Shown one piece after another: positions 8,498 through 56,728 of a stretch of 64,000 bases of DNA. The position numbers were made by a program, and so were the translations under genes. Where the stretch lies: positions 124,001-188,000 of the forward strand of contig NC_018691.1 of NCBI RefSeq assembly GCF_000300005.1. The letters are read 5' to 3'. The stretch comes from Alloalcanivorax dieselolei B5. Its GTDB lineage: Bacteria > Pseudomonadota > Gammaproteobacteria > Pseudomonadales > Alcanivoracaceae. The notes below the pieces were generated by a model, which saw nothing but the letters and a program-made list of their open reading frames with translations, did no database searches and was not told where the DNA came from. Each line of letters starts with the position of its first letter. Position 1 is the stretch's first letter.

Positions 8498-10531
8498 ATG
8501 AGTCACAACCCGTTGATCGACTACCCGGATCTGCCCCCCTTCTCCGAGATCCGTCCCGAGCACGTAAAACCGGCGGTGGAGCAGCTGATCGCGGATGGCC
8601 GCCAGCGTATCGAAACGGTGCTGAAAGCCGGTGACGTGGGTTACCAGGCGCTGGTGGCCGCGCTTGATGAAGAGGACGACCGCCTTGGCAAGGCCTTTGG
8701 CCCGGTCGGGCATCTTAACGCGGTGGCCCAGAACGAGGCGCTGCGGGAAGCTTACAACGCCTGCCTGCCGCTGCTCAGCGAATACGGCACCGAAGTGGGA
8801 CAGAACAGTGCCTTGTTCGCGGCCTATCAGGCGCTCCACGACAGCGCCGAATTCGCCACTCTCAATGAAGCCCAGCGTAAGGATATTGATAATACCCTGC
8901 GTGATTTCCGTTTGTCCGGCGTCGCCCTCGGGGAAGAAGACAAGCGCCGTTACATGGAGAACGCCAAACGCCTCTCCGAACTGACCACACAGTATGAAAA
9001 CCAGCTTCTGGACGCCACCCAGAACTGGAAAAAACACGTTACCGATGAGCAGGAACTGGACGGCCTGCCGGAAACCGCGCTGGCTGGCACCGCCGATCGC
9101 GCCAGGGCCGAGGGACTGGACGGCTGGCTGTTGACGCTGGATTTCCCGGTCTATCTGGCGGTCATGAGCCATGCCCGTAATCGTGCCCTGCGCGAGGAAA
9201 TGTATCGCGCCTTCACCTCTCGGGCCTCTGATCAAGGACCGGACGCCGGCCGTTTCGACAATGGACCCGTCATGGGCGAGATTCTGGCGTTGCGTGATGC
9301 CCAGGCCAAACTGCTCGGGTTCGGGAGCTATGCGGAAAAATCGCTGGCCACCAAGATGGCGCGCAGCGTCGATGAGGTGATGCACTTCCTTCATGATCTG
9401 GCGCTCAAAGCCAAACCGCAGGCAGAGAAGGAACTGCAGGAATTACAGGACTTCGCCGCGGAACAGGGCGCCACGGATCTGCAGCCCTGGGACATTGGAT
9501 TCTGGAGCGAGCGTCTGCGTGAAGCCCGTTACGATCTTTCCGACGAGGCACTTCGCCCCTGGTTCCCGGCGGAAAAAGTCATCGATGGCATGTTCGCCGT
9601 GGTCGGCAAACTGTTTGGTATCCGCTTCCGTCAGCGTGATGACGTGGACACCTGGCATGCGGATGTCCGTTTCTTCGAGTTGGTGGACGATGACGGCGGT
9701 GTCCGCGCCGCCTTCTACCTGGACATGTACGCGCGCACCGGCAAGCGTGGCGGCGCCTGGATGGATGATGCCCGTATTCGCCGCCGCCGGCTGGACGGGT
9801 CCCTGCAAACCCCGGTCGCCTATCTGACCTGTAATTTCGCGCCGCCGGCCGGGGGCAAGCCGGGCCTGCTGACCCACGATGAGGTGGTGACGCTGTTCCA
9901 TGAGTTCGGTCATGGCCTGCACCATATGCTGACCGAGCAGGAAGTGTCCGGGATTTCCGGCATCAACGGTGTTGCCTGGGACGCGGTGGAGCTGCCCAGC
10001 CAGTTCCTGGAAAACTGGTGCTGGACCGAAGAAGGGCTGGCGATGATCTCCGGTCACTATGAAACCGGCGAACCGCTGCCCAAAGCGATGCTGGACAAGA
10101 TGCTGGCGGCGAAAAATTTCCAAAGCGCCATGGGCATGATGCGACAGCTGGAGTTCTCCCTGTTCGACATGCGCCTGCACGCGGAGTACACGCCGGAGCT
10201 GAGTATTCAGAAAGTGCTGGATGAGGTCCGTGACGAGGTGGCGGTGATCAAACCTCCGGCGTTCAATCGCTTCCAGAACGGTTTCTCACACATTTTCGCC
10301 GGTGGCTACGCCGCGGGTTACTACAGCTACAAATGGGCGGAAGTGCTTTCCAGCGACGCGTACTCGCGGTTCGAGGAGGAAGGCACGTTCAATGAGGACA
10401 CCGGCCGCGCTTTCCGTGACAACATCCTTGCCCTGGGTGGCAGCCGGGAGCCGATGGAACTGTTCAAGGCGTTCCGTGGCCGGGAGCCGAGCGTGGAGCC
10501 GTTGTTGCGGCATAGTGGTATCGACGTCTAG
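8498..10531 (+). CDS. prlC: Oligopeptidase A (M3 family)
   Basis: This 677-residue cytosolic zinc metallopeptidase degrades signal peptides and short peptides. The HEFGHGLHH zinc motif is at about 468-476 (H468, E469, H472), with the downstream Glu ligand in the WDAVELPSQF region. Typical C-terminal text such as HIFAGGYAAGYYSYKWAEVLSSDAYSRF is present. The length matches E. coli OpdA/PrlC (about 680). It is divergent from the YrdA-like gene; the start at 8498 follows a GAGAGG-type ribosome-binding site. Downstream lies REP element B. Confidence 0.97.
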   Translation: MSHNPLIDYPDLPPFSEIRPEHVKPAVEQLIADGRQRIETVLKAGDVGYQALVAALDEEDDRLGKAFGPVGHLNAVAQNEALREAYNACLPLLSEYGTEVGQNSALFAAYQALHDSAEFATLNEAQRKDIDNTLRDFRLSGVALGEEDKRRYMENAKRLSELTTQYENQLLDATQNWKKHVTDEQELDGLPETALAGTADRARAEGLDGWLLTLDFPVYLAVMSHARNRALREEMYRAFTSRASDQGPDAGRFDNGPVMGEILALRDAQAKLLGFGSYAEKSLATKMARSVDEVMHFLHDLALKAKPQAEKELQELQDFAAEQGATDLQPWDIGFWSERLREARYDLSDEALRPWFPAEKVIDGMFAVVGKLFGIRFRQRDDVDTWHADVRFFELVDDDGGVRAAFYLDMYARTGKRGGAWMDDARIRRRRLDGSLQTPVAYLTCNFAPPAGGKPGLLTHDEVVTLFHEFGHGLHHMLTEQEVSGISGINGVAWDAVELPSQFLENWCWTEEGLAMISGHYETGEPLPKAMLDKMLAAKNFQSAMGMMRQLEFSLFDMRLHAEYTPELSIQKVLDEVRDEVAVIKPPAFNRFQNGFSHIFAGGYAAGYYSYKWAEVLSSDAYSRFEEEGTFNEDTGRAFRDNILALGGSREPMELFKAFRGREPSVEPLLRHSGIDV

Positions 10532-44442: not shown

Positions 44443-46272
44443 TCAGGGCGTTGGCCAGGGGCTCTGGCTGGCGAAATGTCGCACGGCGTTCTTCTCCCCT
44501 TCGTCGTAAGCGCTGATCGCCGCTTCCCGGTCCTCCTCGACGCTTTCCAGTGTCAGCGCTTCGCCGGACATCTCTATGTGGGCCTGTTCAAGGTCGGCAT
44601 CGAGTACGATGACGGTGTCGCTGCCCTCGCCGCTCCATGGCATCCAGCGTGGTGGACAACCCTCGTCACAACCACCACTGGGATCCCCTTGGCGAAGGAA
44701 GTGCTTCACATAGGTCATCATCGCGTCTTGCAGATCGCGTCGCCCCGCTTCGTTGTCCGCGGTGAACGGGTAACCGAACAGACCCTCTTCCCTGCCATGG
44801 AAGAATGAAATTTCCGCGGAGTGTCCGGCGCCATAAATGAAGTCGAAAGGTTCGGGCCCGGAACCGGGGCCGCCCCAGCGGAAATCATAGGCGAAAACGT
44901 CTTCCTGCCGTTGTGCCAGCGCCGCCGCCAGTTCGTCCACATACTTGGCGCGCCACGCGCGGCTGCCATGATAGCCGGCAAGCTCGTAGATCGTCCGGTC
45001 CCGCTCCGTGGGCAGCACGTCGTCCAGGGTGAACGGAGAGCCGTCTGCTTTCGATTCCCCTTCCATCACATCCTTCAGATTGAGCCAGGTGTAGTCTCCG
45101 GAAGGCTGGTCATACAGTGCTTTCACCAGGGCGCCATAAAGGGGCATGAAGGCCTTTTGCTCATATTCGTTGGCGCCGATGATCAAAGGCACGGAGTTGT
45201 ATTCGCCAGCACGAATGGCCGGCATCCAGCCGCCGCTGGGCACCACCACACCGTCCTCCGTGGCGCCGTAGGCGGACAGGCTGGTGTAGGCCAGGACGGC
45301 GGCGTAGTAGTCATGGGCCGGGATCTGGAACAGATATTCATCCAGGGTGCCATCGTCGACCATCTGCTGGCGCAGGGCGGCGGCTTCGCTGGCCTCTCCG
45401 GCATCACCCCGGTAGCGCAACAGATAGTCGATCTGTTCGTTGGTGAAGGCCTCGGCCTCCGCCGGCGAGCGGGTCGCCATGGCCGGGCTTTGTGCCATGG
45501 CCTTGTGGAACAGGCCTTGTGCTTGCGGTGACACCAGCAGTGTCATCACGTTGTGACCCCCGGCGGACTCGCCGGCAATGGTGATCTGATCGGGATCGCC
45601 GCCGAAGGCCGCGGCATTGTCACGTACCCATCGCAGGGCCTGTATCTGATCCAGATTGCCGAAATTGCCGGAATCGGACAGCGGGTCGGCACCGCCGGTC
45701 TGGACTTCCGGTTGGAAGAACCAGCCCAGTGGCCCCAGCCGGTACTGGATCACCACGACCACCGCGTCGGCGTGCAGGGCCAGGTTGCCGCCATCGTAAT
45801 CCATGGCGGTGCCGAAGTTATTGGAACCACCGTGAATCCAGACATAAACCGGCAATTGCTCCTGCTGCCAGTCAGCACGGCTGGGCCGGTAGATATCCAG
45901 GTACAGGCAGTCTTCGTCGCCGATGATGTTCTGTGTGCGTACCCAGTGAAGGGTGGTTTCCGCCTGTACGCAACGGGATGCCGGCTCGGTGGCGTCGCGC
46001 ACGCCGCTCCAGCTTTCCGGCGGTTGCGGTGCGCGCCAGCGTAGGTCGTCCACTGGCGGGCGGGCATAAGGTATTCCCCACCACACCAGCAGGGTGCCAT
46101 CGACAGTGGCGTTTTCCGGTGCCCGTTCCTGGCCGGCGACCTCGCCTTGCAGCGTGGTCGCGGTCACAGGGGGCGGTGGGGATGGCCGGTCATTGCTGCT
46201 GTCACTGCCGCAGCCGGTCAGGATCAGGCTGAACAGGGCCAGCAGTCCCAGGGATTTGCCATGGGGGAACAT
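44443..46272 (-). CDS. Secreted lipoprotein carboxylesterase (type B family)
   Basis: The 609-residue protein has a lipobox (SLILTGC, Cys21), a Pro-rich linker and a type B carboxylesterase fold. GIPYARPPVDDLRWRAPQP, EDCLYLDIYRP, the oxyanion loop WIHGGS and the nucleophile elbow GESAGG (Ser236) are all present. The Glu/Asp and His of the triad should lie in the second half; the C-terminal IYGAGHSAEI segment likely gives the His. It is anchored to the envelope and probably cleaves a bulky or hydrophobic ester. It is the first of three same-strand lipoprotein hydrolases. Confidence 0.88.
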   Translation of the reverse strand: MFPHGKSLGLLALFSLILTGCGSDSSNDRPSPPPPVTATTLQGEVAGQERAPENATVDGTLLVWWGIPYARPPVDDLRWRAPQPPESWSGVRDATEPASRCVQAETTLHWVRTQNIIGDEDCLYLDIYRPSRADWQQEQLPVYVWIHGGSNNFGTAMDYDGGNLALHADAVVVVIQYRLGPLGWFFQPEVQTGGADPLSDSGNFGNLDQIQALRWVRDNAAAFGGDPDQITIAGESAGGHNVMTLLVSPQAQGLFHKAMAQSPAMATRSPAEAEAFTNEQIDYLLRYRGDAGEASEAAALRQQMVDDGTLDEYLFQIPAHDYYAAVLAYTSLSAYGATEDGVVVPSGGWMPAIRAGEYNSVPLIIGANEYEQKAFMPLYGALVKALYDQPSGDYTWLNLKDVMEGESKADGSPFTLDDVLPTERDRTIYELAGYHGSRAWRAKYVDELAAALAQRQEDVFAYDFRWGGPGSGPEPFDFIYGAGHSAEISFFHGREEGLFGYPFTADNEAGRRDLQDAMMTYVKHFLRQGDPSGGCDEGCPPRWMPWSGEGSDTVIVLDADLEQAHIEMSGEALTLESVEEDREAAISAYDEGEKNAVRHFASQSPWPTP

Positions 46273-46343
46273 CGCTCTCTCCTTGCATTGTTGTTATGGC
46301 ATGCGTTGTTAAGACCCGCGCCCAGACAGGGGCGAGGCGGATC

Positions 46344-46364
46344 ACGGAGGGCATGGCCCTCCGT
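46344..46364. other. Perfect 9-bp palindrome between two hydrolase genes
   Basis: ACGGAGGGC-ATG-GCCCTCCGT could fold as a hairpin 3' of the 46388-47809 gene. An A-run on the plus strand means a T-run precedes, not follows, it on the transcribed strand, so it is not a standard intrinsic terminator. Confidence 0.45.
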
Positions 46365-46387
46365 AAAAAAAGCAAACAAGACTCGAA

Positions 46388-47809
46388 TCAAGGGCAGGCG
46401 GGCAGGCCCGGACGATCCTCACTGGTGAACTGACAACCGTAGTTGGGATCGGCCACCGCTGCCGGGTCGAGAATCTCATCCCCCGCCGGTTTCACCGAGT
46501 TCTGCTCCCAGTTGATCATATCGGCGAAGGCCGTTTCCTGCTCCTCCTGGGTGAAATCACAGTGCCCGGGAGAGCGCAGCGCCCGCTGCACCAGCCAGGT
46601 GTCGCTGCCGTTGGCCGCGGCACGTTCGCGGTAGACCTGCGCGTGCCGGAACGGCACATACAGATCCCCCAGCCCTTGCAGACTGACCACCGGGATGGTG
46701 AATTCGCCGTTGACCACCGGAATCCAGCGCAGACCATCGCTGCGCGGGCCGTTGGCGGCCGGATTCTCCTCCACCCTCAGGATGGTGTCGTTGAAGGCCT
46801 GTTCCTCGGCGGTGAGGGCAGGATCGTTATCGAACTGATAGGTGACGCCGGCGTTGCCGGTGAGGTTGTCGGCGAGGATGCCGTTGACGGTACCGTCGCG
46901 CCCGCCGGTGCCCATCACCACACCCCAGTAGTAGGTACGAAAGCCGATATCCGCGATGGGCCGTTCGCCGCCGGACAGATTGCGGGAGATCGCCATCATC
47001 TTCTCGCCCTCCGCCGTGGGTGTGCCCAGTGCGCTGGGGGTGGGGACCTCGTCCCACAATACCGCGTTGATGGCGTCGGTATCGAAGTTGGTGGCCGGCA
47101 TACTTTCCAGCGGCGGCACGCTGTTGTCCGCGCTGTGCGCCAGATGCTGGGCGGCCATGGTGAACCAGGCCAGATAGTTGAACTCGAGCGTGTCCGCCAC
47201 CACACCGCACATGGGCACGGCGCCGTCGTAGTGCACGACGTTGTTGGCGGTGTTGTAGGTTTCCTGCTCGATGGCGGCGGCGGTGACGTGGCCGCCCATG
47301 GAATGGCCGGTGATATAGATCCTGGACGGTTCGGCCAGTTCCTCGCCGTTTTCAGCGGCGATTTCGTTGAACGCCAACGCCAGTTCGTTGGTGTCCTCCA
47401 CGCCGGTCCGTACGTCATAGTAGTTGGTGGAGTAGCTTGATGCCGCCCAGGCGTAGCCGTTGTCCAGGAACCAGGCCCGCAGGCTCGGGCTGGAAACGGT
47501 CAGGGCCTGGCCCTCGCCGCGATAACCGTGGGCGTACATCACCAGTTTGCCGTTCCAGTTTTCCGGCACTTCCATCCGATAACCGGCGCCGCTGGGCCGC
47601 ACGCCCCACCAGCGGCTGGCATTTTCGTGCCCCTCCAGGGCCTCGAACGGCAGGCTGGCTTCATCCGCCGTGAAAGTGCGCTGATCCTGGACGTGGCTGG
47701 GGTCGCTCGGTGCCGGATCCCGGTCGCTGTCACTGCCGCAGGCGGCGATGCTGGCGGCGAGCAAGCCTATGGCCAGGGGTTTAAAAGATATAACGGAATG
47801 CGAGTCCAT
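46388..47809 (-). CDS. Secreted lipoprotein alpha/beta hydrolase
   Basis: The 473-residue protein has a lipobox-like signal (AASIAAC, Cys24) and an alpha/beta-hydrolase core: LVMYAHGYRGEGQAL, then the GHSMGG elbow (Ser170). A later QGLGDLYVPFRHAQVY stretch holds a likely acid Asp and ALRSPGHCDF a likely catalytic His. The family is not recognised by name; general shape is near to secreted esterases/tannase-like enzymes. Its own promoter may lie in the AT-rich 47810-47930 stretch. Confidence 0.8.
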   Translation of the reverse strand: MDSHSVISFKPLAIGLLAASIAACGSDSDRDPAPSDPSHVQDQRTFTADEASLPFEALEGHENASRWWGVRPSGAGYRMEVPENWNGKLVMYAHGYRGEGQALTVSSPSLRAWFLDNGYAWAASSYSTNYYDVRTGVEDTNELALAFNEIAAENGEELAEPSRIYITGHSMGGHVTAAAIEQETYNTANNVVHYDGAVPMCGVVADTLEFNYLAWFTMAAQHLAHSADNSVPPLESMPATNFDTDAINAVLWDEVPTPSALGTPTAEGEKMMAISRNLSGGERPIADIGFRTYYWGVVMGTGGRDGTVNGILADNLTGNAGVTYQFDNDPALTAEEQAFNDTILRVEENPAANGPRSDGLRWIPVVNGEFTIPVVSLQGLGDLYVPFRHAQVYRERAAANGSDTWLVQRALRSPGHCDFTQEEQETAFADMINWEQNSVKPAGDEILDPAAVADPNYGCQFTSEDRPGLPACP

Positions 47810-48047
47810 CTGGTGTCTCCCTGTCTTTATTGGTGTTATATAAATAATTTTTTATGGTGTTTCGCTGTGCGGAATAGTCTTTCTATAAAACGAAACGCAC
47901 TCAATATGAGAGGCGGTCACGGTGACGTCAACCTGTGAAAGGGAGGAGGTGGGATCTGCATCGCAAAGCGTCGCCGAATCACAAGCGGCGGGTCGGGATC
48001 GACGTGAAGGGGGCGGCTGAGCACCCCCTCCGCGAACCGGCTTTAAG

Positions 48048-49826
48048 TTAGAAATCCACGCGTTGCATCGCCAGATCGGTGATCTGAACGGTGCCGGCGG
48101 CGGTTTGGTCGAACACCAGCTCCACCGCGTTGAGGTTGGTGAAGTCCACGCCCTCGAAGGCCGTCAACGGGATATCGACGGCGTTCAGGGTGGTTTTTTG
48201 CGAGCCGTGATTGGCATCGTCATAGAAGGTGTGACCCGGCGGATAGAACAGCCCGTCGCTGTAATCGCTGGCGACCACGGCGGCGCGGTTGCCGTCCATG
48301 TCCTCAAGCACCACCTGGAAGTCCTGACCGTCCGTATTGTCAGTGTCGCCGTGGGAAATGCCCACGCGTACCGATAACACCTGATAGTCCGTGGCGTCGG
48401 TACCCAGCAGCTCCGAGCGGTAGGTGGCGGCGGTGTCCCAGACCATGAACAGTTGCTCGGCGATATTGAAGGTCGGCGTGGCCACGTCACAGCCCTCGCC
48501 GGGGCGGCCGTTGGTCTGGCAGATGCCGAATCTGGAGAAGCCGTCGAACAAAACCGCGCCCCCGAGATTGTTGGTGGTCAGGCTGGCGGGATCCAGGGTG
48601 TCGTCGATGATCAGTCGTTGCCCGGCGGGGGCGTGGACGCTGAGCAGGAAGCGGTCGTCGCAGGAAGTCTCGCCGGCCGGGCAGAGCGTTTCCGGCACCG
48701 GCGTCTGGCCATTCCAGTAGGCGCCGAACGCCTCCTCGCCGCCGATGAAGTAGCGGAAGAAGGAGGCGATGAAAAACAGCCCGTGGGCTTGCTGCATCTC
48801 CGGCGTGTCGCGGCCGTTGTCGGCGGCGTTCTCGCCACACCAGGGATCATCGCCGTCACCGTCCAGGATGGTCCAGTCATCCGGGCGGGTATCGGTGGTC
48901 CAGACGGTATTGTAATAGTTGTGGTTGGCGCCCATCGGAATCAGTTGGAATTTGGCGTAGGGGTCGTTGTCCACGGCGTAGCGGCTGGTGTCGTAGGCGA
49001 AGTTGCCCATCAGATCTTCCACGTCGCCGTCGCAATACCCGGCCAGGGACAGGAAGGTCACGTTGCTGACGGTCTGAGTGTTGTAATCGGTGGGGGCCAG
49101 GGCGAACACCGCCGTGATGTTGTGAGGCTCGGGTTGAGCGCGGTTGTACAGCACGGTCTGATTGACCCCCTCGCCGCCACGGGAGTGCCCCATGATGCCG
49201 ATCCGGCTCATGTCCAGCTTGCCCGTCAGGTTGTCCAGGCCGTTACCGCCGGACTGATTGATGGTGCGAAACTCATCCAGATGGCGGACCACCAGCATGG
49301 CTCGCGCCAGGGCACCGGTGTCGCCGTTGCTTGGGCTGCTGTCATGGTCGTTAATGTCATTGGCGTCCACGGAAATGACCGCGTAGCCGTGGCTGGCCAG
49401 ATTTTCGGAGATGTACTGGTAACCACGATAGCTGGGAATCGGGTTATCGCAGTCGTCATCGTCGATGCCGCGGCCGTCGTAACAGGTGCCATGGCGGCCA
49501 TGCAGGAACAGCACCACCGGGAACGGGCCGGCTTCGTCCTCGGGGTACTGAATATAACCGTGAATATCGGTTTCGTAGCTGTCGCCATTCTTGTTGTCCA
49601 CGACGGTCATGCGGCCGAACTGGTATTCATTCTCCGACACGCCATGGGCGCCGGTGGCGGCGGCATCGGCGGCCACCGTGTTGGTGATCGGATCCGGTTC
49701 GGTGTTGGCTACCGGAGGTGGGTTGTCGGAGGAGCTGTCGCCACCACAACCACTAAGAATCAAAGAGATGAAAAGATAAAGTGCTCCCGCACCCTTGGAT
49801 GACAAGGGCGACATGCTGATGCTCAT
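48048..49826 (-). CDS. Secreted lipoprotein alpha/beta hydrolase, PET-hydrolase/PAF-AH-like
   Basis: The 592-residue protein has a lipobox (LILSGC, Cys27). The core shows VVLFLHGRHGTCYDGRG, then the GHSRGG elbow (Ser215) and an LIPMGANHNYYNT segment with the probable His. The N-terminal half looks like the platelet-activating-factor-acetylhydrolase/poly-ester hydrolase superfamily; the C-terminal 200 residues form an extra beta-rich domain (LLSVHAPAGQRLIIDDTLD onward) of unknown role. Together with the two neighbours it forms a cluster of envelope-exposed esterases. Confidence 0.8.
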   Translation of the reverse strand: MSISMSPLSSKGAGALYLFISLILSGCGGDSSSDNPPPVANTEPDPITNTVAADAAATGAHGVSENEYQFGRMTVVDNKNGDSYETDIHGYIQYPEDEAGPFPVVLFLHGRHGTCYDGRGIDDDDCDNPIPSYRGYQYISENLASHGYAVISVDANDINDHDSSPSNGDTGALARAMLVVRHLDEFRTINQSGGNGLDNLTGKLDMSRIGIMGHSRGGEGVNQTVLYNRAQPEPHNITAVFALAPTDYNTQTVSNVTFLSLAGYCDGDVEDLMGNFAYDTSRYAVDNDPYAKFQLIPMGANHNYYNTVWTTDTRPDDWTILDGDGDDPWCGENAADNGRDTPEMQQAHGLFFIASFFRYFIGGEEAFGAYWNGQTPVPETLCPAGETSCDDRFLLSVHAPAGQRLIIDDTLDPASLTTNNLGGAVLFDGFSRFGICQTNGRPGEGCDVATPTFNIAEQLFMVWDTAATYRSELLGTDATDYQVLSVRVGISHGDTDNTDGQDFQVVLEDMDGNRAAVVASDYSDGLFYPPGHTFYDDANHGSQKTTLNAVDIPLTAFEGVDFTNLNAVELVFDQTAAGTVQITDLAMQRVDF

Positions 49827-50121: not shown

Positions 50122-50508
50122 TCAGGCGATATCCATGATGCCGTCCATTTCCACCCCGGCACCTTTCGGCAGGGCGGCCACGCCGATGGCGGCGCGGGCG
50201 GGGTAGGGCTGCTGGAAGTAACTGGCCATGACCTCATTGACCAAAGCGAAATGGCTGAGGTCGGTAAGGAAGATATTGAGTTTGACGATGTCCTGCAGGC
50301 CGCCGCCAGCGGCTTCGCAGACCGCCGCCAGATTGTCGAACACACGGCGGATCTGGGCTTCCATGTCGCCTTCCACCAACGTCATGGTGGTGGGGTCCAG
50401 CGGAATCTGGCCGGACAGGTACACCGTGGAACCGGCCTTGATGGCCTGGGAATAGGTGCCGATGGCCGCCGGCGCCCGGTCGGTATTGATTACGGAACGA
50501 TTGGACAT
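50122..50508 (-). CDS. ridA: Reactive intermediate/imine deaminase RidA
   Basis: This 128-residue trimeric enzyme hydrolyses 2-aminoacrylate and related imines. It has [34 protein letters not shown] and [22 protein letters not shown]. Arg105, the substrate-carboxylate ligand in this family, is conserved. In Pseudomonas-type genomes ridA directly follows spoT; here a foreign-looking block (50682-54541) lies between them. The C-terminus (MDGIMDIA) is slightly variant. Confidence 0.95.
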
Positions 50509-50681
50509 GGTAGTTCAGTACTTGAGTGTGAATGACGGCGCCCCCGATTGCCCGGTGACGCGCAGGAAGAAGCTATGCTGGCACGGGGGGCCAGGGTACG
50601 CAATAGACCGTGGCGTCCCCATCGGGGGTGCGGATCCATTATAATGTGTCTCTTATCGCCGCAATTCCGGTTCGCTACCCC

Positions 50682-51134
50682 ATGTCGCCTTGTCCCTGCC
50701 AATCCGGCCTCGAGTACTCGCGCTGCTGCCAGCCTTTCCACCAGGGCGAGCCGGCACCGACGCCGGAAGCCTTGATGCGCTCCCGCTACAGCGCTTTCGT
50801 CCTCAATGACACCGCCTACGCAAAGGCGTCCTGGCATCCGGCTACCCGGCCGGCGTCGTTGACGCTGGACGACGGTGAGCAGTGGTGCGCTCTGAGGGTG
50901 TTGGGCAGTGGCGTACAGGGTGATCAGGGCTGGGTGCACTTTCATGCGGTGGCAAGAGAGGCGGATGGTTTCGTGGTACTGGAGGAGCGCTCCCGGTTTG
51001 TGGCCGAGTCGGGTCGTTGGTTCTATCTGAACGGGGAACATGAGATACGGCCCCTGAAACCCGGCCGCAATGACCCTTGCCCATGCGGCAGCGGCAAGAA
51101 GTTCAAGAAGTGTTGCGCCGTTCGTAACGTTTGA
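50682..51134 (+). CDS. YchJ-like SEC-C motif protein
   Basis: Starting at the ATG at 50682, the 150-residue protein has [13 protein letters not shown] near the N-terminus and the C-terminal SEC-C zinc motif [17 protein letters not shown] middle domain (about 25-110) carries [10 protein letters not shown], the UPF0225/YchJ signature. Function of YchJ is unknown. It is the only plus-strand gene inside the aau-ridA interval. Confidence 0.9.
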
Positions 51135-51232
51135 GCCATGGCGTTGCCTCCGGTCCGGCAAAGGCCCGAATGCCCGCACGGCGAAGGCCACGCAATTCGA
51201 TGATGGCGGTGAAAAAATTCTGACGGGGGAAA

Positions 51233-51673
51233 TCAGGGCCAGGGGTAGGTGGCTACGGGCAGCCCCCGCTCACGTAATGCCTTGACCACCTCGCGCCGGT
51301 ACCCGACAACGTCCTCCAGGACATCGGCGCGGAGTGTGCGCACTTCTTGTTCGCTGAGCAGGCCGCTGGCTTCGATGTGCTCCGGCTGGCCCCAGGTGGT
51401 GAGAACGTAGTTCATCACCTCGGTGAGGCGCCGGTCGCTGAGTCCGGAGCCGATCACGCCGGGCACCTGAAGAATGTAGTGGCGCCCCTCCGGCGTCATC
51501 AGGAAGGAGGAGACATAGCCGCGAAAATCAGGAATACCGCCCACCTCGGTGCCGGCACCGTCGGGGCGATGGCAGCCGCTGCAATGCAGCAGAAAGTCGT
51601 TACGCGGGTCGGCCTGGGCCGGTGGGATGATCAGCCCGCCCAGTGCCATCAGCATAGTAAAGATGATGCGCAT
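51233..51673 (-). CDS. Small mono-haem c-type cytochrome, aau-associated
   Basis: This 146-residue periplasmic protein has a signal peptide (1-22, PAQA) and one CSGCH haem-binding motif just after it (residues 31-35). A likely axial Met lies in the SFLMTPEGRHYIL region. It is the last gene of the aromatic-amine-dehydrogenase set, 9 bp after aauA. It could accept electrons from the dehydrogenase or be the haem protein needed for cofactor maturation; which of the two is not known. Confidence 0.82.
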   Translation of the reverse strand: MRIIFTMLMALGGLIIPPAQADPRNDFLLHCSGCHRPDGAGTEVGGIPDFRGYVSSFLMTPEGRHYILQVPGVIGSGLSDRRLTEVMNYVLTTWGQPEHIEASGLLSEQEVRTLRADVLEDVVGYRREVVKALRERGLPVATYPWP

Positions 51674-51682
51674 GCGCCGGTG

Positions 51683-52234
51683 TCAGCCCTGATCGTCCAA
51701 TACCCCAACCAGCATGGCCACGGTGCAGTGATACCCTTGAGAGGTGTTGGCCATGCACCAGTTGATGTCATTGTGCACACCCATCTGATAGCCGGGACGT
51801 TCCCGCTCACTGGTCACGCAGAAGGTGCCGTTGCACTCGGCCCGCCCGCAGCAGTCGTTATAGGAGACCAGGTAATCGCGGCCGTCATTGGGGTTGTGGC
51901 AGGTGCCGACCCAGGCCACCTTGGACGCTTCGGAGCCCGGCGGACAACTGGTCAGAGAGCCGCCGCAGTCGTTGCAGAGATTGCCGTCGAGGGCGCAATA
52001 GCGCCAGTACTCGCATTCGTTGGGGTCGTCGTCCTGGCCGTCGAGGATGGCATCGGCCCAGGCCCGGTTGCTTTGATTGTAGGGTAGTACCGGCAACAGT
52101 GAGCCGCCGACGAAGGCCATGCCCATTTTACTGATGAAGCTCCGTCGACTGACCCGTTGGGCCACGCGCCGGCTGAACGATTCCGCGCCGCCATCCATTT
52201 TCCCTAACAGCAAATCGAATAACGCTTTCATCAC
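51683..52234 (-). CDS. aauA: Aromatic amine dehydrogenase light (TTQ) chain
   Basis: The 183-residue protein has a Tat signal (SRRSFISKMGMAFVGGSLLP) and a Cys-rich mature part with the amine-dehydrogenase beta-chain pattern CEYWRYCALDGNLC, CPPG, HNPNDGRDYLVSYNDCCG. The two Trp that form tryptophan tryptophylquinone are W108 and W159, and the catalytic Asp is D127. The segment ERERPGY...HNDINWCMAN is of the aromatic (AADH) rather than methylamine type. Substrates would be tyramine, phenylethylamine or tryptamine. It lies between aauD and a cytochrome gene. Confidence 0.92.
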   Translation of the reverse strand: MMKALFDLLLGKMDGGAESFSRRVAQRVSRRSFISKMGMAFVGGSLLPVLPYNQSNRAWADAILDGQDDDPNECEYWRYCALDGNLCNDCGGSLTSCPPGSEASKVAWVGTCHNPNDGRDYLVSYNDCCGRAECNGTFCVTSERERPGYQMGVHNDINWCMANTSQGYHCTVAMLVGVLDDQG

Positions 52235-52264
52235 ACTGTCTCCTTTACGCGATCTTCGAGCCGC

Positions 52265-52855
52265 TCACGGCTGCGTCTTTTCCAGGTAGCCCTGGATCGA
52301 TTCCACGTCCATGTCGTGGGCATTGAACAGACTTTCCAGCTGCTCGCGGTTATTCACCAGCCCTTTGGCGCTGACCACGCCGGTGCGGCCGATCACCACC
52401 GCGAACGGGAGCCGGGAGACTCGATAAGCCAAACCCAGTTCGGTGGAAAGCACGTAGTCGAATTCTCCCAGGGCCGCGGTATGAATGAAGCGCTGGTGGC
52501 GCTCCGGCTCGCCGTCACTGGCCAGGGTGATGTCGAGCCAGCGTCTCTCGCTGTCCTTGATGGACTTGAGTACCGGCAGCAGCTTCTTGCAGATCGGGCA
52601 CGTCGGTGAGAGGAAAAACAGAAGCTGCGCTTTTTCCCGGTGCTGTCCCACTTCCACCGCGCCGCCGGTGAGACTGGTCAGCGAGAAGGCGGGTGAGGTA
52701 TCACCAACCTTGGGCCCGGAATCGTTCATCAGCGCCCCCATCGGCGCGATACGTTCGAACAAGATGCCGGTCTGTCTGGCCAGTGCCAGGAACGCCACCC
52801 CCAGTGTCAGAACGGCTAGCGTTAGAAAGGCCAGTAAGAAGTAGATCAGCGTCAT
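52265..52855 (-). CDS. aauD: Amine dehydrogenase accessory protein MauD/AauD
   Basis: The 196-residue protein has one N-terminal transmembrane helix (about 3-27) and a periplasmic thioredoxin-like domain with the CPIC active site (SPTCPICKKLLPVL). MauD-type proteins are required for disulfide formation in the six-disulfide beta chain. It follows aauE by 10 bp and precedes aauA, the standard mau/aau order (B-E-D-A). Confidence 0.93.
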   Translation of the reverse strand: MTLIYFLLAFLTLAVLTLGVAFLALARQTGILFERIAPMGALMNDSGPKVGDTSPAFSLTSLTGGAVEVGQHREKAQLLFFLSPTCPICKKLLPVLKSIKDSERRWLDITLASDGEPERHQRFIHTAALGEFDYVLSTELGLAYRVSRLPFAVVIGRTGVVSAKGLVNNREQLESLFNAHDMDVESIQGYLEKTQP

Positions 52856-52865
52856 GATCAGACCC

Positions 52866-53399
52866 TCATGAAAGCCGGGAAGGCGGTGGAATCCGCAGAC
52901 GATTGCTGTTGATTTGCTCCAACAACACGAACAGCAACAGGGTCACCAGCGCGGCGGGAAATACCACCGCCGCCTGGTCCAGCCCACTGAGTGGTTGCAG
53001 CCAGGCGACGGCGGTCAGGGCGGCGATCACCAGGATCGCGTTGCGTAGTACCAGCGAGTGGTGCAGCGGTTGTGGGATGCCCCCGCAGCCGCATTCCACA
53101 CGAGTGCGGCCGCGCAGCAGATTGACTCCCATGGCTGCGGCATAAAGCGACAGCAGGGCAGCGGCCAGATAGAGAGCAAAGGCACGGCTGGGATTGAACA
53201 GCAGGCCGATCACTATCAGAGCTTCCAGCACCAGTAACAGCACGGAAGCCGGTGTCACCAGGGTGTGCGGCAGAAGCCGGTAGTCGGCGACAAAGCCCTG
53301 GAATTCCGTAAAGTCGGACACCTTGTGCAACAGCGCGCGCAGGAAGATGAACAACATAAACAAGGATAAAGTATTGGTAAGTAGTGCCGCCATGATCAC
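52866..53399 (-). CDS. aauE: Amine dehydrogenase accessory membrane protein MauE/AauE
   Basis: The 177-residue protein has about four transmembrane helices and the DoxX/MauE pattern (LRALLHKVSDFTEFQGFVADYRLLP near the N-terminus, then a VECGCGGIPQPLHHSLVLRN loop with a Cys pair). MauE is needed for processing or transport of the beta subunit, probably as the redox partner of MauD. Its ATG overlaps the aauB stop (ATGA). Confidence 0.92.
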   Translation of the reverse strand: MIMAALLTNTLSLFMLFIFLRALLHKVSDFTEFQGFVADYRLLPHTLVTPASVLLLVLEALIVIGLLFNPSRAFALYLAAALLSLYAAAMGVNLLRGRTRVECGCGGIPQPLHHSLVLRNAILVIAALTAVAWLQPLSGLDQAAVVFPAALVTLLLFVLLEQINSNRLRIPPPSRLS

Positions 53400-54541
53400 T
53401 CTCCCACGGTCAGCAGGGACGATGCCCAGCCGGATTTGTCGTCGCTGCCCGCCGCCTTGAACACAAACTTGGTGTTGTCCAGCAAAGCGAAACGCTCGAT
53501 GGTTTCGTCTTCATCGGTGGTGCCGAACAGCACGGGTTCCTGACCTTGGCTGACGGCCAGGGCGATCAATCCTTCGGCGTGGCTGCGGCCGATCACCTTT
53601 GCGCTTTTCATGTCCACGCTCCAGATTTCCTCCGAAGGATCCTTATGGCTGCCCTCGTAAGCGTCCGGGTGCATCAGCACGAACATCATGTTGGTGGCGG
53701 GGCTATAGGCCATCACCACATAACCGCCCGGTGCCCAATCACCGTTCACACCCTTGGTCAATGGCACGGTGCCCAGCAGCTTGGCGGTGGCGTCACCGTC
53801 ATCGACCAGATAGAGCGTGCCGTTAAAGGAGAGGAACACCAGCCGGCCATCAGCGGTGCGTTGGGCCTGAACGTACAAAGGGTCCTGCTCGGGGCTGAAT
53901 AACGATATCGACGTGGTGTCATACTGGTCGCCGTTGACGCTGTAGGTTTTCAGATCACCGGCGCCGCACAGGGTGGAGAAACGATTGTCCCGTGGTGCGG
54001 GAAAGACGCCGTAGCAGCCTGGAGTGGGCACCTCGAGCACGGCTTCTCCAGCTTGCAGATCCACCACGGTGACCGAGGTGGCCGGAGTCGCGTTCTGCAC
54101 ATAGAGGTAGCGTCCGTCGGCGCTCTGTTCCAGCAGCTGGGCCATGCCAATGGCCTTGACCGCCTTATTGGGAATGACGATCTCGCGCTTGAGACTGAGG
54201 GTGGCGATATCGTATTCCTCGATCACGCTTTCCACCGGGCCACGGGTCAGCCGTTTCATGTAATCGGAGAGCGTGTACAGCGTTTTTTGGTCGCGGCCAA
54301 GCAGGATCTGGCTGGTCAGCCCCACCGACACCGACCCTTTATAACTCAGGTCCTGTTGCCCATAGACATGAATTTTACTGGCGCCGGCCCATTCCGCTTG
54401 ATTCACCAGCACGTTGGAGCCGGGGTCGATGGCCGGCTTTACCGAGATGGTTTCTGGTTTGAAGGCCTGGGCGGAGGCGCACAGGAACAGGCCGAACACG
54501 GTGAAGAGAGTGGCCGTCTTTGGCCATTGTGCTGCAATCAT
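53396..54541 (-). CDS. aauB: Aromatic amine dehydrogenase heavy chain
   Basis: Starting at the ATG at 54541 (GGAAGGG ribosome-binding site 7 nt upstream; an ATG at 54568 is less likely), this 381-residue protein has a signal peptide (about 1-26, SAQA). A seven-bladed beta-propeller of the MADH heavy-chain type follows: HVYGQQDLS, TLYTLSDYMKRLTRGPVE, GYFPAPRDN-like VFPAPRDNRFSTLCGAGDL and PDAYEGSHKDPSEEIWSVD are visible. The chain forms an alpha2beta2 complex with AauA. It opens the aau operon directly downstream of spoT. Confidence 0.9.
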   Translation of the reverse strand: MIAAQWPKTATLFTVFGLFLCASAQAFKPETISVKPAIDPGSNVLVNQAEWAGASKIHVYGQQDLSYKGSVSVGLTSQILLGRDQKTLYTLSDYMKRLTRGPVESVIEEYDIATLSLKREIVIPNKAVKAIGMAQLLEQSADGRYLYVQNATPATSVTVVDLQAGEAVLEVPTPGCYGVFPAPRDNRFSTLCGAGDLKTYSVNGDQYDTTSISLFSPEQDPLYVQAQRTADGRLVFLSFNGTLYLVDDGDATAKLLGTVPLTKGVNGDWAPGGYVVMAYSPATNMMFVLMHPDAYEGSHKDPSEEIWSVDMKSAKVIGRSHAEGLIALAVSQGQEPVLFGTTDEDETIERFALLDNTKFVFKAAGSDDKSGWASSLLTVGE

Positions 54542-54591
54542 GGGGAAGCCCTTCCATTCCATCTGCATGGGAAGGGTTAAGCAAAAAATAT

Positions 54592-54604
54592 ACCCAAACT
54601 GGGT
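54592..54604 (-). promoter_or_regulatory. Dyad upstream of aauB
   Basis: ACCCA-AAC-TGGGT sits 51 bp upstream of the aauB start next to an A/T-rich tract (AAAAAATATA). It lies within the 80-bp gap after spoT, where a new promoter for the aau genes would have to be. It is short, so regulatory use is tentative. Confidence 0.4.
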
Positions 54605-54622
54605 CGAGGTTGTCGTCGGGGC

Positions 54623-56728
54623 TTAGAGACGGTGAATGCGAACGATGTTATCCAGCACACGCAGGCGTTTGATAATGCGCGCCAGGTGGATTCGATCCTT
54701 CACCGTGAGGGTGACATTGAGAAGGGATAACGTGGGGTCCTTATCGGACATCTCGATGGTATCGATGTTGGAACCCAGCTCGGTGACGCTGTTGGCCAGA
54801 GTGGCGAGGACACCGCGTTTGTTGACCAGTTCGATGCGCAGGCCGGCGGTGAATTCCTGCTCCGCCTGCCGCTCCCAGCTCAGGGCGATGCATTTCTCCG
54901 GTGCGTTGCGCATCTCCGCCAGCAGGTTCTTGCATGTGTCCCGGTGCACTACAATGCCGCGCCCGGCACTGAGATGCCCCAGGATGGTGTCGCCCGGTAG
55001 CGGGTAGCAGCATTTGGCGTAGGCGACAATCAGACCCTCGCTGCCGCTGATCGCCAATGGCCGGCGATCATCCTCGTGTCGGGCCTCGCCGTGGTTGCCC
55101 ATCATTTTGCGCGCCACCAGCGGCGCCAGCCGGTTGCCCATGCCGATATCTTCCAGCAGCTCATCCAGATTGCCCTGGTCGTTGCTGTCCAGCTCGGCGC
55201 GGATCGCCGCTTCGGGCAGATGCTCGAGGCTGCTTTCGTAGGCCGCCAGGGCTTTGTCCAAGAGTCTCTGTCCCAGTTCGCGGGCGTCTTCCCGGCGCTG
55301 CTGCTTGAGAAAGTGGCGAATGTTGGAACGGGCCTTGCCGGTGACGACAAAGTTGAGCCAGGCCGGATTGGGGGTGGCGTTGGGGGCGGTGATGATCTTC
55401 ACCGTTTGCCCGGACTCCAGCGGCGTGGACAGCGCCGCCAGCTTGCCGTCCACCCGGGCCGCCACGCAGCGGGTGCCCACCTTGGTGTGCACCGCGTAGG
55501 CGAAGTCCACTGGCGTGGCGCCGGCGGGGAGTTCCTTGATGTCGCCTTTGGGGGTGAACACGTAGGCTTCGTCGGGGAACAGGTCGACTTTGACGTTCTC
55601 GATGAACTCCATCGAGTTGCCGGCCTTCTGCTGCATCTCCAGCAGCCTCTGCATCCAGGATTGGGCCCGGGTGTGGGTCGGCGAGCCGGGCTTCTCCTCG
55701 GTCTTGTACAGCCAGTGGGCGGCGATGCCATTGTTGGCCATCGCTTCCATTTCCTCGGTGCGGATCTGGATTTCCAGCGGAATCCCGGAGTGGGCCTTCA
55801 GAGTGGTATGCAGGGACTGGTAGCCGTTGGCCTTGGGAATGGCTACGTAATCCTTGAACCGGCCCGGAATGGGAATGAAATAGTTGTGCACCGCGCCGAG
55901 CACCCGGTAGCAGGTGTCCACGCGGTCGACGATGATGCGGAAGCCAAACACGTCCATGATTTCCGAGAACGGTTTGTGCTGCTCCTTCATCTTGTTGTAG
56001 ATGCTGTAAAGGTGCTTCTCGCGCCCCAGCACCCGGGCCTCGATACCTTCCTGCTGTAGGCAGTGTTCGATGCTGGTCTTGATCGACGAGAGGATTTCCT
56101 TGCGGTTGCCCCGGGCGGAGCGCACGGCCTGGCCGATCAGCCGGGCCCGCATCGGATGGATGGCGTGGAAGGCCAGATCCTCGTACTCCACGCGCATGTT
56201 GTACATGCCCAGGCGAAAGGCGATCGGTGCGTAGATCTCCAGGGTTTCGGTGGCGATGCGGCGTCGCTTGTCGGGATTCATAACATGCAGCGTGCGCATG
56301 TTATGCAGGCGGTCGGCGAGCTTCACCAGGACCACGCGGATGTCCCGCGTCATCGCCAGGATCATCTTGCGCAGGTTCTCCGCCTGTTGCTCCGCCTTGG
56401 ATTCGAACTTGATCTGGGTGATTTTGGAGACGCCGTCGACCAGCTCCGCCACTTCCTCGCTGAACTCCGTCGCCAGCTGCTCCTTGGAGACGCCGGTGTC
56501 CTCGATCACGTCGTGCAGCATGGCCGCCATCAGAGAGGCGTGGTCCATATGCATATCGGTGAGAATGTTGGCCACCGCCAGCGGATGCGTGATGTACGGG
56601 TCCCCGGTCCGTCGATACTGGCCCTCGTGGGCGGTCTCGGCGAAATAGTAGGCGCGCACTACCGGGGCGATCTGCTCGTCCGTCAGGTAGCTGCGCAAAC
56701 GTTTTTCCAGGTTATGGATGGTGGACAA
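54623..56728 (-). CDS. spoT: Bifunctional (p)ppGpp synthetase/hydrolase SpoT
   Basis: This 701-residue protein makes and degrades (p)ppGpp. The N-terminal HD hydrolase domain carries LMAAMLHDVIEDT and VKLADRLHNMRTL. The synthetase domain holds FGFRIIVDRVDTCYRVLGAVH with the YQSLHTTL motif, followed by a TGS domain (VFTPKGDIKELPAGATPVDFAYAVHTKVG) and a C-terminal zinc-finger/ACT region (YAKCCYPLPGD; RIELVNKRGVLATLAN). Length equals E. coli SpoT. It follows rpoZ after a 250-bp gap that has no gene. Confidence 0.98.
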   Translation of the reverse strand: MSTIHNLEKRLRSYLTDEQIAPVVRAYYFAETAHEGQYRRTGDPYITHPLAVANILTDMHMDHASLMAAMLHDVIEDTGVSKEQLATEFSEEVAELVDGVSKITQIKFESKAEQQAENLRKMILAMTRDIRVVLVKLADRLHNMRTLHVMNPDKRRRIATETLEIYAPIAFRLGMYNMRVEYEDLAFHAIHPMRARLIGQAVRSARGNRKEILSSIKTSIEHCLQQEGIEARVLGREKHLYSIYNKMKEQHKPFSEIMDVFGFRIIVDRVDTCYRVLGAVHNYFIPIPGRFKDYVAIPKANGYQSLHTTLKAHSGIPLEIQIRTEEMEAMANNGIAAHWLYKTEEKPGSPTHTRAQSWMQRLLEMQQKAGNSMEFIENVKVDLFPDEAYVFTPKGDIKELPAGATPVDFAYAVHTKVGTRCVAARVDGKLAALSTPLESGQTVKIITAPNATPNPAWLNFVVTGKARSNIRHFLKQQRREDARELGQRLLDKALAAYESSLEHLPEAAIRAELDSNDQGNLDELLEDIGMGNRLAPLVARKMMGNHGEARHEDDRRPLAISGSEGLIVAYAKCCYPLPGDTILGHLSAGRGIVVHRDTCKNLLAEMRNAPEKCIALSWERQAEQEFTAGLRIELVNKRGVLATLANSVTELGSNIDTIEMSDKDPTLSLLNVTLTVKDRIHLARIIKRLRVLDNIVRIHRL

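Follow-up and report, generated by a model that had tools for sequence, protein, structure and literature searches.

Here we describe a gene cluster for a tryptophan tryptophylquinone (TTQ) amine dehydrogenase in Alloalcanivorax dieselolei B5, located between spoT and ridA in a 64,000-nucleotide stretch of the genome (NC_018691.1, positions 124,001 to 188,000 of the forward strand; hereafter, the window), and in particular a cytochrome encoded in it. The interval contains intact aauB, aauE, aauD, and aauA genes and a c-type cytochrome gene (51233-54568, minus strand), together with a ychJ-like gene on the plus strand. A preliminary description had named the same set of genes, and we found that all of the cluster genes have intact open reading frames (ORFs) and give matches to their families; it listed the cytochrome but passed over how odd this protein is, and the lack of MauG is not something that the window alone could reveal. 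The genome itself (G000) is a single contig and 99.98% complete. The span that we examined starts at 50682, the likely start of ychJ, and thus covers ychJ and the putative amine dehydrogenase operon.

53396-54568, minus strand: aauB, large subunit of the TTQ amine dehydrogenase (PF06433, E 6.6e-28)
52866-53399, minus strand: aauE, MauE-like membrane protein (PF07291, E 6.8e-26)
52265-52855, minus strand: aauD, MauD-like thioredoxin-fold protein (MauD model, 182.7 bits, just below the cut-off of 188.6)
51683-52234, minus strand: aauA, TTQ-bearing small subunit (PF02975, E 3e-55; 2agl_D, E 3.5e-48)
51233-51673, minus strand: cluster cytochrome ("Orf2 type"), proposed TTQ-maturation partner (one CxxCH, c552-like fold)
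50682-51134 (likely), plus strand: ychJ-like gene, apparently within the foreign block (PF17775 and SEC-C)
54623-56728, minus strand: spoT, flank (951 bits to PRK11092; 98% protein identity to congeners G006, G007, and G008)
50122-50508, minus strand: ridA, other flank (PF01042; 100% protein identity to G006)
50610-54626, no strand: seemingly foreign block, diverging from congener G006 (BLASTN)

As the gaps among the five minus-strand genes are only -4, 10, 30, and 9 bp, the arrangement is consistent with one operon.

Enzyme type and relatives

In comparisons with solved structures, both subunits were nearer to the enzyme of 2agl and related PDB entries, which we take to be the aromatic amine dehydrogenase (AADH) of Alcaligenes faecalis, than to methylamine dehydrogenase (MADH). 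AauB matched the AADH large subunit at E 5.1e-48 and the best MADH at 1.3e-21; AauA matched AADH at 3.5e-48, the MADH chain 3c75 at 4.4e-40, and other MADH chains at about 5e-33 and weaker. AauA belongs to PF02975 (185.9 bits, cut-off 25) and is 57% identical to the A. faecalis AADH small-subunit segment, versus 44% to the Paracoccus denitrificans MADH. Both subunits missed the NCBIfam equivalog cut-offs for MADH (158.3 versus 196.85 bits and 103.8 versus 454.45 bits); on these cut-offs and the cluster content, we rejected an identity as MADH. The comparisons indicate that the window enzyme is an AADH-type TTQ amine dehydrogenase, in agreement with the aromatic assignment made earlier. The residues cited for that assignment were confirmed by alignment: W108, W159, and D127 are conserved in all 109 aligned small subunits, some of which are the same gene twice (D83 in 105, the window AauA included), and the RERPGY...HNDINWCMAN segment of AauA matches the A. 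faecalis chain.

The A. faecalis AADH is the nearest solved relative of both subunits and has in common with the window enzyme the TTQ residues and the RERPGY...HND(I/V)NWCMAN stretch, but the 57% identical window small subunit falls in a separate clade, it has no Cys pair at columns 89/137, and its cluster is isolated at the spoT-ridA site. We take the A. faecalis cluster to have the aauBEDA order, a monoheme cytochrome nearby, and no mau maturation genes, which Chistoserdov and co-workers (2001) reportedly did not find there. Among 108 small subunits, columns 89/137 are both Cys (69 rows) or neither, and columns 90/134 are both Cys (85 rows) or neither, never one alone; these pairs are probably disulfides. 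The window AauA has only 90/134, like 19 other AADH rows; both pairs occur in 64 of the 103 AADH rows and neither in 19, and four of the five MADH rows have 89/137 only.

The P. denitrificans mau cluster (L103) encodes an enzyme of the same family, with B, E, D, and A homologs in the same order and the same TTQ residues. The window cluster differs in having no gene for MauF, MauG, MauJ, NapG/NapH-like proteins (MauM/N), or amicyanin beside the enzyme, and in its cytochrome, a type not found in MADH clusters. As MADH controls we used five plasmid records; in 295 genomes from the family of the control G103, there was no match above the MADH cut-off, and weaker matches occurred in five.

The best identity of the window AauA outside itself was 51% in a search of 57 genomes (A. 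dieselolei, 12 congeners, and 44 others; mostly drafts), 10 of which have a TTQ small subunit. A second AADH, deeply different from the window copy, lies at about 554.5 kb of the same chromosome. Its locus (about 547-560 kb; L003, 3366-15811) appears larger and catabolic-looking: besides aauBEDA and a cytochrome gene, it has genes nearby for an aldehyde dehydrogenase, a porin-like protein, two AMP-binding enzymes, and a regulator of the AraC type; this copy type was found in six of the 12 congeners (G002, G006, G007, G008, G011, and G012). Because of this second AADH, the window cluster need not be what confers amine oxidation on the organism, as had been claimed earlier; the enzyme type in that claim stands.

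In a tree of 108 small-subunit sequences (103 different), the window copy grouped with those of a Saccharospirillaceae bin, a Thalassobium-labelled bin, and Salinisphaera orenii (four rows, 100/96), inside a 39-row group of alpha-, beta-, and gammaproteobacterial sequences (99/89); the second copy fell elsewhere. The pairing with Salinisphaera had 99/88 in this tree but dropped to 0.009 in a quick FastTree analysis, and we therefore do not build on it. The tree has several long branches, and false joins are possible, in the group of the second copy as well. Class labels changed nine times on the tree, versus a minimum of two, which agrees with frequent transfer without proving it. On the Pseudomonas aeruginosa plasmid pF061_1 (L109), aauBEDA and both types of cytochrome gene (see below) have a recombinase-family gene on either side; beyond these are Tn3-type transposase genes, and mercury-resistance genes occur some kilobases from the unit. 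Such an arrangement would fit a unit working on its own.

Insertion site

In nine of the 12 congeners (G001-G005 and G009-G012), ridA follows spoT within about 20-60 bp, and in G006 and G008 only ychJ lies between them. In the case of G007, the contig ends 180 bp past spoT; as its small subunit is of the other type only, none of the 12 congeners has the window cassette (completeness is 90% and 86% for two of them). The insertion thus appears lineage-specific, as had been suggested. Against G006, BLASTN identity was 96% on the ridA side up to 50609 and 92% from 54627 into spoT. Since ychJ DNA is only about 75% identical between the window and G006, while its flanks are 92-96% identical and G006 and G008 share 88% across the whole spoT-ridA region, the block of about 50610-54626 seems foreign as a whole, ychJ included. 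Alternatively, ychJ may have changed fast. The lineage-specific insertion of the preliminary description is therefore supported but was drawn too narrowly: the foreign block seems to take in ychJ, and it may have arrived by recombination or replacement from a relative with an already occupied interval.

Duplications or terminal repeats marking the block edges were considered, and none was convincing. In G006, we read a repetitive extragenic palindromic (REP)-like palindrome between ychJ and spoT (L139, about 9870-9960), which is absent from the AADH-bearing allele; the site is possibly an insertion hot spot. In other genomes of the same family, the interval is 5.4 kb with two other large genes (G019; L150, 3598-8997), about 0.7 kb (G024), or about 0.3 kb (G034), and thus takes insertions repeatedly in the family.

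Past ridA, the window contains three hydrolase-like genes in a row (44443-49826): a carboxylesterase, one without a Pfam match, and one resembling poly(ethylene terephthalate) (PET) hydrolase. Among the 11 congeners with a readable interval, the middle gene was found in all 11 (in two pieces in G010), the ridA-adjacent gene in eight, and the carboxylesterase gene, within the fetched DNA, in G006 only.

The cluster cytochrome

We call this protein the Orf2 type after A. faecalis orf-2, by name and not by sequence comparison. The window protein contains a single CxxCH motif, and neither Pfam nor NCBIfam gave a match at E<=0.001 (PF00034 at 0.0054 was below the cut-off). Its AlphaFold model (pLDDT 92.1, pTM 0.83) matched only one solved structure at E<=0.001, Thermus thermophilus cytochrome c552 (1c52; TM 0.59/0.65, E 6.7e-4), which is also the nearest solved relative by profile (E 6.9e-23 to 8.9e-23). 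The protein therefore has the CxxCH and the fold of a class I cytochrome c, but Ile74 in place of the axial methionine. A second kind of cytochrome gene beside aauA, encoding an ordinary cytochrome that we call the Met type, occurs in 74 of the 103 AADH loci that we collected. The profiles of the two types are related (probability 99.5%), and 16 residues before the axial position are missing in the Orf2 type. The alignment with Thermus c552 has the same 16-residue gap and places Met69, presumably the heme ligand, opposite Ile74.

Met stands at the axial column in 17 of 95 Orf2-type proteins versus 74 of 74 Met-type ones (a set picked by profile score and not by Met, although the profile was seeded with sequences chosen for Met), and no Orf2-type column has more than 43 Met. 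Our first reading of 10 sequences, that the family wholly lacks the axial Met, was thus too strong. In an alignment of 86 Orf2-type proteins, CxxCH is present in all, by selection, preceded immediately by Tyr27 (78 Tyr, 8 Phe); beyond the CxxCH His, no well-filled column is conserved as Met, His, or Lys. Residues 66-79 contain none of these three in 32 of the 86, both A. dieselolei copies included. An open heme is plausible, although the sixth ligand may come from elsewhere, e.g., Met59, His65, or Met87. The possibility of a special distal Arg was set aside: the nearly invariant R64, R115, and R126 have aligned counterparts in Thermus c552, and so mark no new function. With its single CxxCH, the cytochrome does not belong to CCP_MauG, and a Pfam scan of 76 members gave two cytochrome c families and one stray match. 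In one locus (L015, 686-1492), an Orf2-type cytochrome is fused to a second cytochrome c domain with, as read from the sequence, a likely axial Met.

The distribution of the Orf2 type follows that of AADH. Among the 57 relatives, matches above 130 bits occurred in exactly the 10 genomes with aauA, with 14 cytochromes for 14 aauA copies; none of the 47 genomes without AADH gave a score over 52 bits. The next scores were 50 bits (a Met-type paralog in G043) and at most 42 bits (G054, G044, G011, and G049). Among 370 genomes of the class (at least 90% complete), the 10 with a TTQ small subunit were the 10 with an Orf2-type match of at least 140 bits, and none of the other 360 exceeded 52 bits (two genomes matched weakly, with top scores of 51 and 39 bits). 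Both sets include G000; leaving it out gives 9 of 9 genomes (12 of 12 copies) for the relatives and 9 of 9 genomes for the class. One class genome (G503) had three small subunits and one cytochrome among the matches listed. In G043, which belongs to the same order as A. dieselolei, each of the four AADH-type small subunits (L011, L013, L014, and L015) has an Orf2-type cytochrome next to it.

We then compared 108 loci, five of the MADH type and 103 of the AADH type, some of which are the same gene twice (L086 and L099). In 95 of 101 complete AADH loci, an Orf2-type gene adjoins aauA; all five MADH plasmid records, searched over their whole length, lack one. Two further AADH loci are cut by contig ends: for L056, the genome contains a 145-bit match where another contig begins, and for L027 it contains none. 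The Orf2 type occurs without the Met type in 28 loci (the window included) and with it in 67, and the Met type occurs alone in seven (one cut off). Pairwise distances of the cytochrome and AauA are correlated (86 loci; Mantel r 0.74, reached in 0 of 2000 permutations), which is what linked inheritance would give. When we considered another constant gene near aauA as the maturase, no cluster of surrounding ORFs of at least 120 amino acids occurred in more than 38 loci; we read the recurrent ones as AraC-type regulators, aldehyde dehydrogenases, and RND-type and porin-like genes, with some antisense artefacts.

TTQ maturation in a genome without MauG

In the A. dieselolei genome, there was no match to PF03150 (CCP_MauG) at E<=0.001, and thus no MauG-type maturation gene of the kind that goes with MADH in either the cluster or the genome; the same model matched in two of 14 control genomes, one of them E. 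coli. Some other factor must form TTQ, given that the search turned up no MauG-family protein. The match was absent from 19 of 60 AADH genomes tested, most of unstated completeness (A. dieselolei and 18 of 59 others); therefore, AADH genomes lacking any MauG-family match are common. It was absent from four of the 10 stated to be at least 90% complete (G000, G006, G007, and G052) and, in the class sample, from two of 10, G000 counted. We regard it as highly probable that the window contains, all three taken jointly, an AADH enzyme of foreign origin that is independent of MauG.

By analogy with MauG, the cluster cytochrome may serve TTQ maturation, a proposal to which we give somewhat less than an even chance. 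TTQ of MADH is formed in the periplasm (PMC7876137), and MauG binds peroxide at a five-coordinate heme and oxidizes the precursor tryptophans at long range (PMC6405878). In the present case, a self-contained, horizontally acquired AADH cassette would supply its own maturation partner. AauA would be exported by the twin-arginine translocation (Tat) system, on the strength of a leader that we take to be twin-arginine-like, and would fold in the periplasm with AauD and AauE, to which help with disulfides is assigned by family; W108 and W159 would there become TTQ. The cytochrome would be a c552-type relative in which loss of the loop before the axial Met left the heme perhaps open to peroxide or oxygen, like the five-coordinate heme of MauG; such a small open-heme cytochrome, made alongside the precursor, could oxidize it as MauG does. 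The likeness to MauG lies, by analogy only, in this proposed role and the open heme, and the cytochrome differs in being mono-heme, c552-like, and outside CCP_MauG. The mature AADH would convert an aromatic primary amine, with tyramine and phenylethylamine as suggested candidates, to an aldehyde and ammonia, with electrons leaving to azurin or soluble c cytochromes. A tryptophylquinone is also made without MauG in quinohemoprotein amine dehydrogenase (QhpG and QhpD; PMC7876137), but by a cytoplasmic flavoprotein and radical-SAM route in a different enzyme family.

Several observations weigh against a maturation role. Besides the 17 Orf2-type proteins with Met at the axial column, at least one Met, His, or Lys stands at residues 66-79 in 54 of 86. 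A CCP_MauG protein is present in 41 of the 60 AADH genomes, four congeners among them. Profile A3, used in the searches, was built partly from the AADH loci of the same relatives, so that only the 57-genome negatives are fully independent, and the scan of class genomes scored at most 10 candidates per genome. Finally, six of the 101 complete AADH loci (L057, L064, L069, L071, L076, and L095) have no Orf2 type, and two of these (L064 and L095) have no MauG-like gene nearby either.

The six loci are from metagenome bins labelled Sulfuritalea, Rhodocyclaceae, or Rhodocyclales, and their draft genomes contain no Orf2-type match above about 51 bits. In L069, L071, and L076, MauG-like di-heme genes lie within about 10 kb of aauA; in the L057 genome, such a pair is found on another contig, 4.4 kb before the aauB fragment with which that contig ends, and this is probably the same aauB. 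No MauG-like gene was found in the flanks (10 kb at most, often shorter) of the 72 Orf2-carrying loci among L016-L095. A strict exclusion of the two does not hold; the L048 genome, in which the Orf2 type is present, has a MauG-like pair 1.1 kb from a contig end that possibly adjoins the L048 aauB, and probably has both. This fits the MauG-like pair coming first and the Orf2 type being lost later in one lineage, but the pattern amounts to just one or two events. The fuller scheme, in which the cytochrome is a mono-heme, MauG-independent TTQ maturase derived from a c552-type carrier, with MauG-like genes later substituting for it in one Sulfuritalea-like lineage, is possible, with a chance clearly below even. 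The module in the Sulfuritalea-like drafts lies near aauB (L076, 2972-5783; L069, 2726-5379; L071, 1406-4128; L191, 2869-5524) and encodes a small protein with CxGCH and a pair of MauG-like di-heme proteins, the pair being fused into one frame in L071. At the position of the MauG axial Tyr, which we take to be Tyr294, Tyr is present in both halves of the L071 protein, and L069 and L076 have Phe or His.

The cytochrome could instead be the first electron acceptor of AADH, with a sixth ligand that is variable, or absent without consequence. We consider this a serious contender, though with a chance clearly below even. Its class I fold, the position of its gene next to the dehydrogenase, the possible ligands at residues 66-79 in many members, and the 28 loci in which it is the sole cytochrome of the two all suit a carrier, and the constant linkage, which we read in favor of maturation, fits electron transfer too. 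However, the Met type, with its invariant axial Met, would be the more obvious carrier in the 67 loci where both are present, yet it is the Orf2 type that is retained in more loci; of the two, the presumed electron carrier is therefore the more dispensable. The absence of any conserved ligand column also argues against a carrier, as does the presence in the A. dieselolei genome of a protein that we take from its sequence to be azurin-like. Azurin is presumably the partner in AADH co-crystals (PDB 2h3x, 2h47, and 2iaa, which appeared here as AADH matches only).

It is unlikely, in our view, that TTQ is made by an unlinked enzyme, such as a LodB/GoxB/QhpG-like flavoprotein, or mostly by autocatalysis, with the cytochrome having another role. 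The six loci without the cytochrome would suit such a route, and flavoproteins carry out the maturation of cysteine tryptophylquinone (CTQ) enzymes, with the first hydroxylation in MADH regarded as autocatalytic (PMC7876137); nevertheless, aauBEDA with its cytochrome or cytochromes is found again in distant bacteria and on plasmids, and no other gene was constant in the DNA fetched around it, although no search was aimed at flavoprotein maturases. That the window copy is an unused, decaying insert is quite improbable: no regulator, aldehyde dehydrogenase, or transporter gene adjoins it, promoter-like sites are not above chance (one versus 1.4 expected), and the larger AADH locus is elsewhere in the genome, but its five genes are intact, its catalytic residues are retained, with 72% identity between it and the nearest relative, and read-through from spoT is possible.

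Among the titles and abstracts searched, with subscription journals mostly out of reach, we found nothing on AADH cofactor maturation or the Orf2-type cytochrome; MauG is treated for MADH (PMC6405878) and flavoproteins for CTQ enzymes (PMC7876137). The kind of enzyme and the gene arrangement are already known; the window cluster is worth testing as a variant for its separate clade, its isolated site, and, above all, the pairing of a MauG-free genome with a dedicated cytochrome whose axial Met is relaxed. As this single-contig genome has two AADH clusters with one Orf2-type cytochrome each and no MauG match, the question is narrowed to five genes and a single deletion. Should the cytochrome be the maturase, it would amount to a minimal heme system that forms a protein-derived quinone, and a portable unit with which active AADH could be produced in other hosts.

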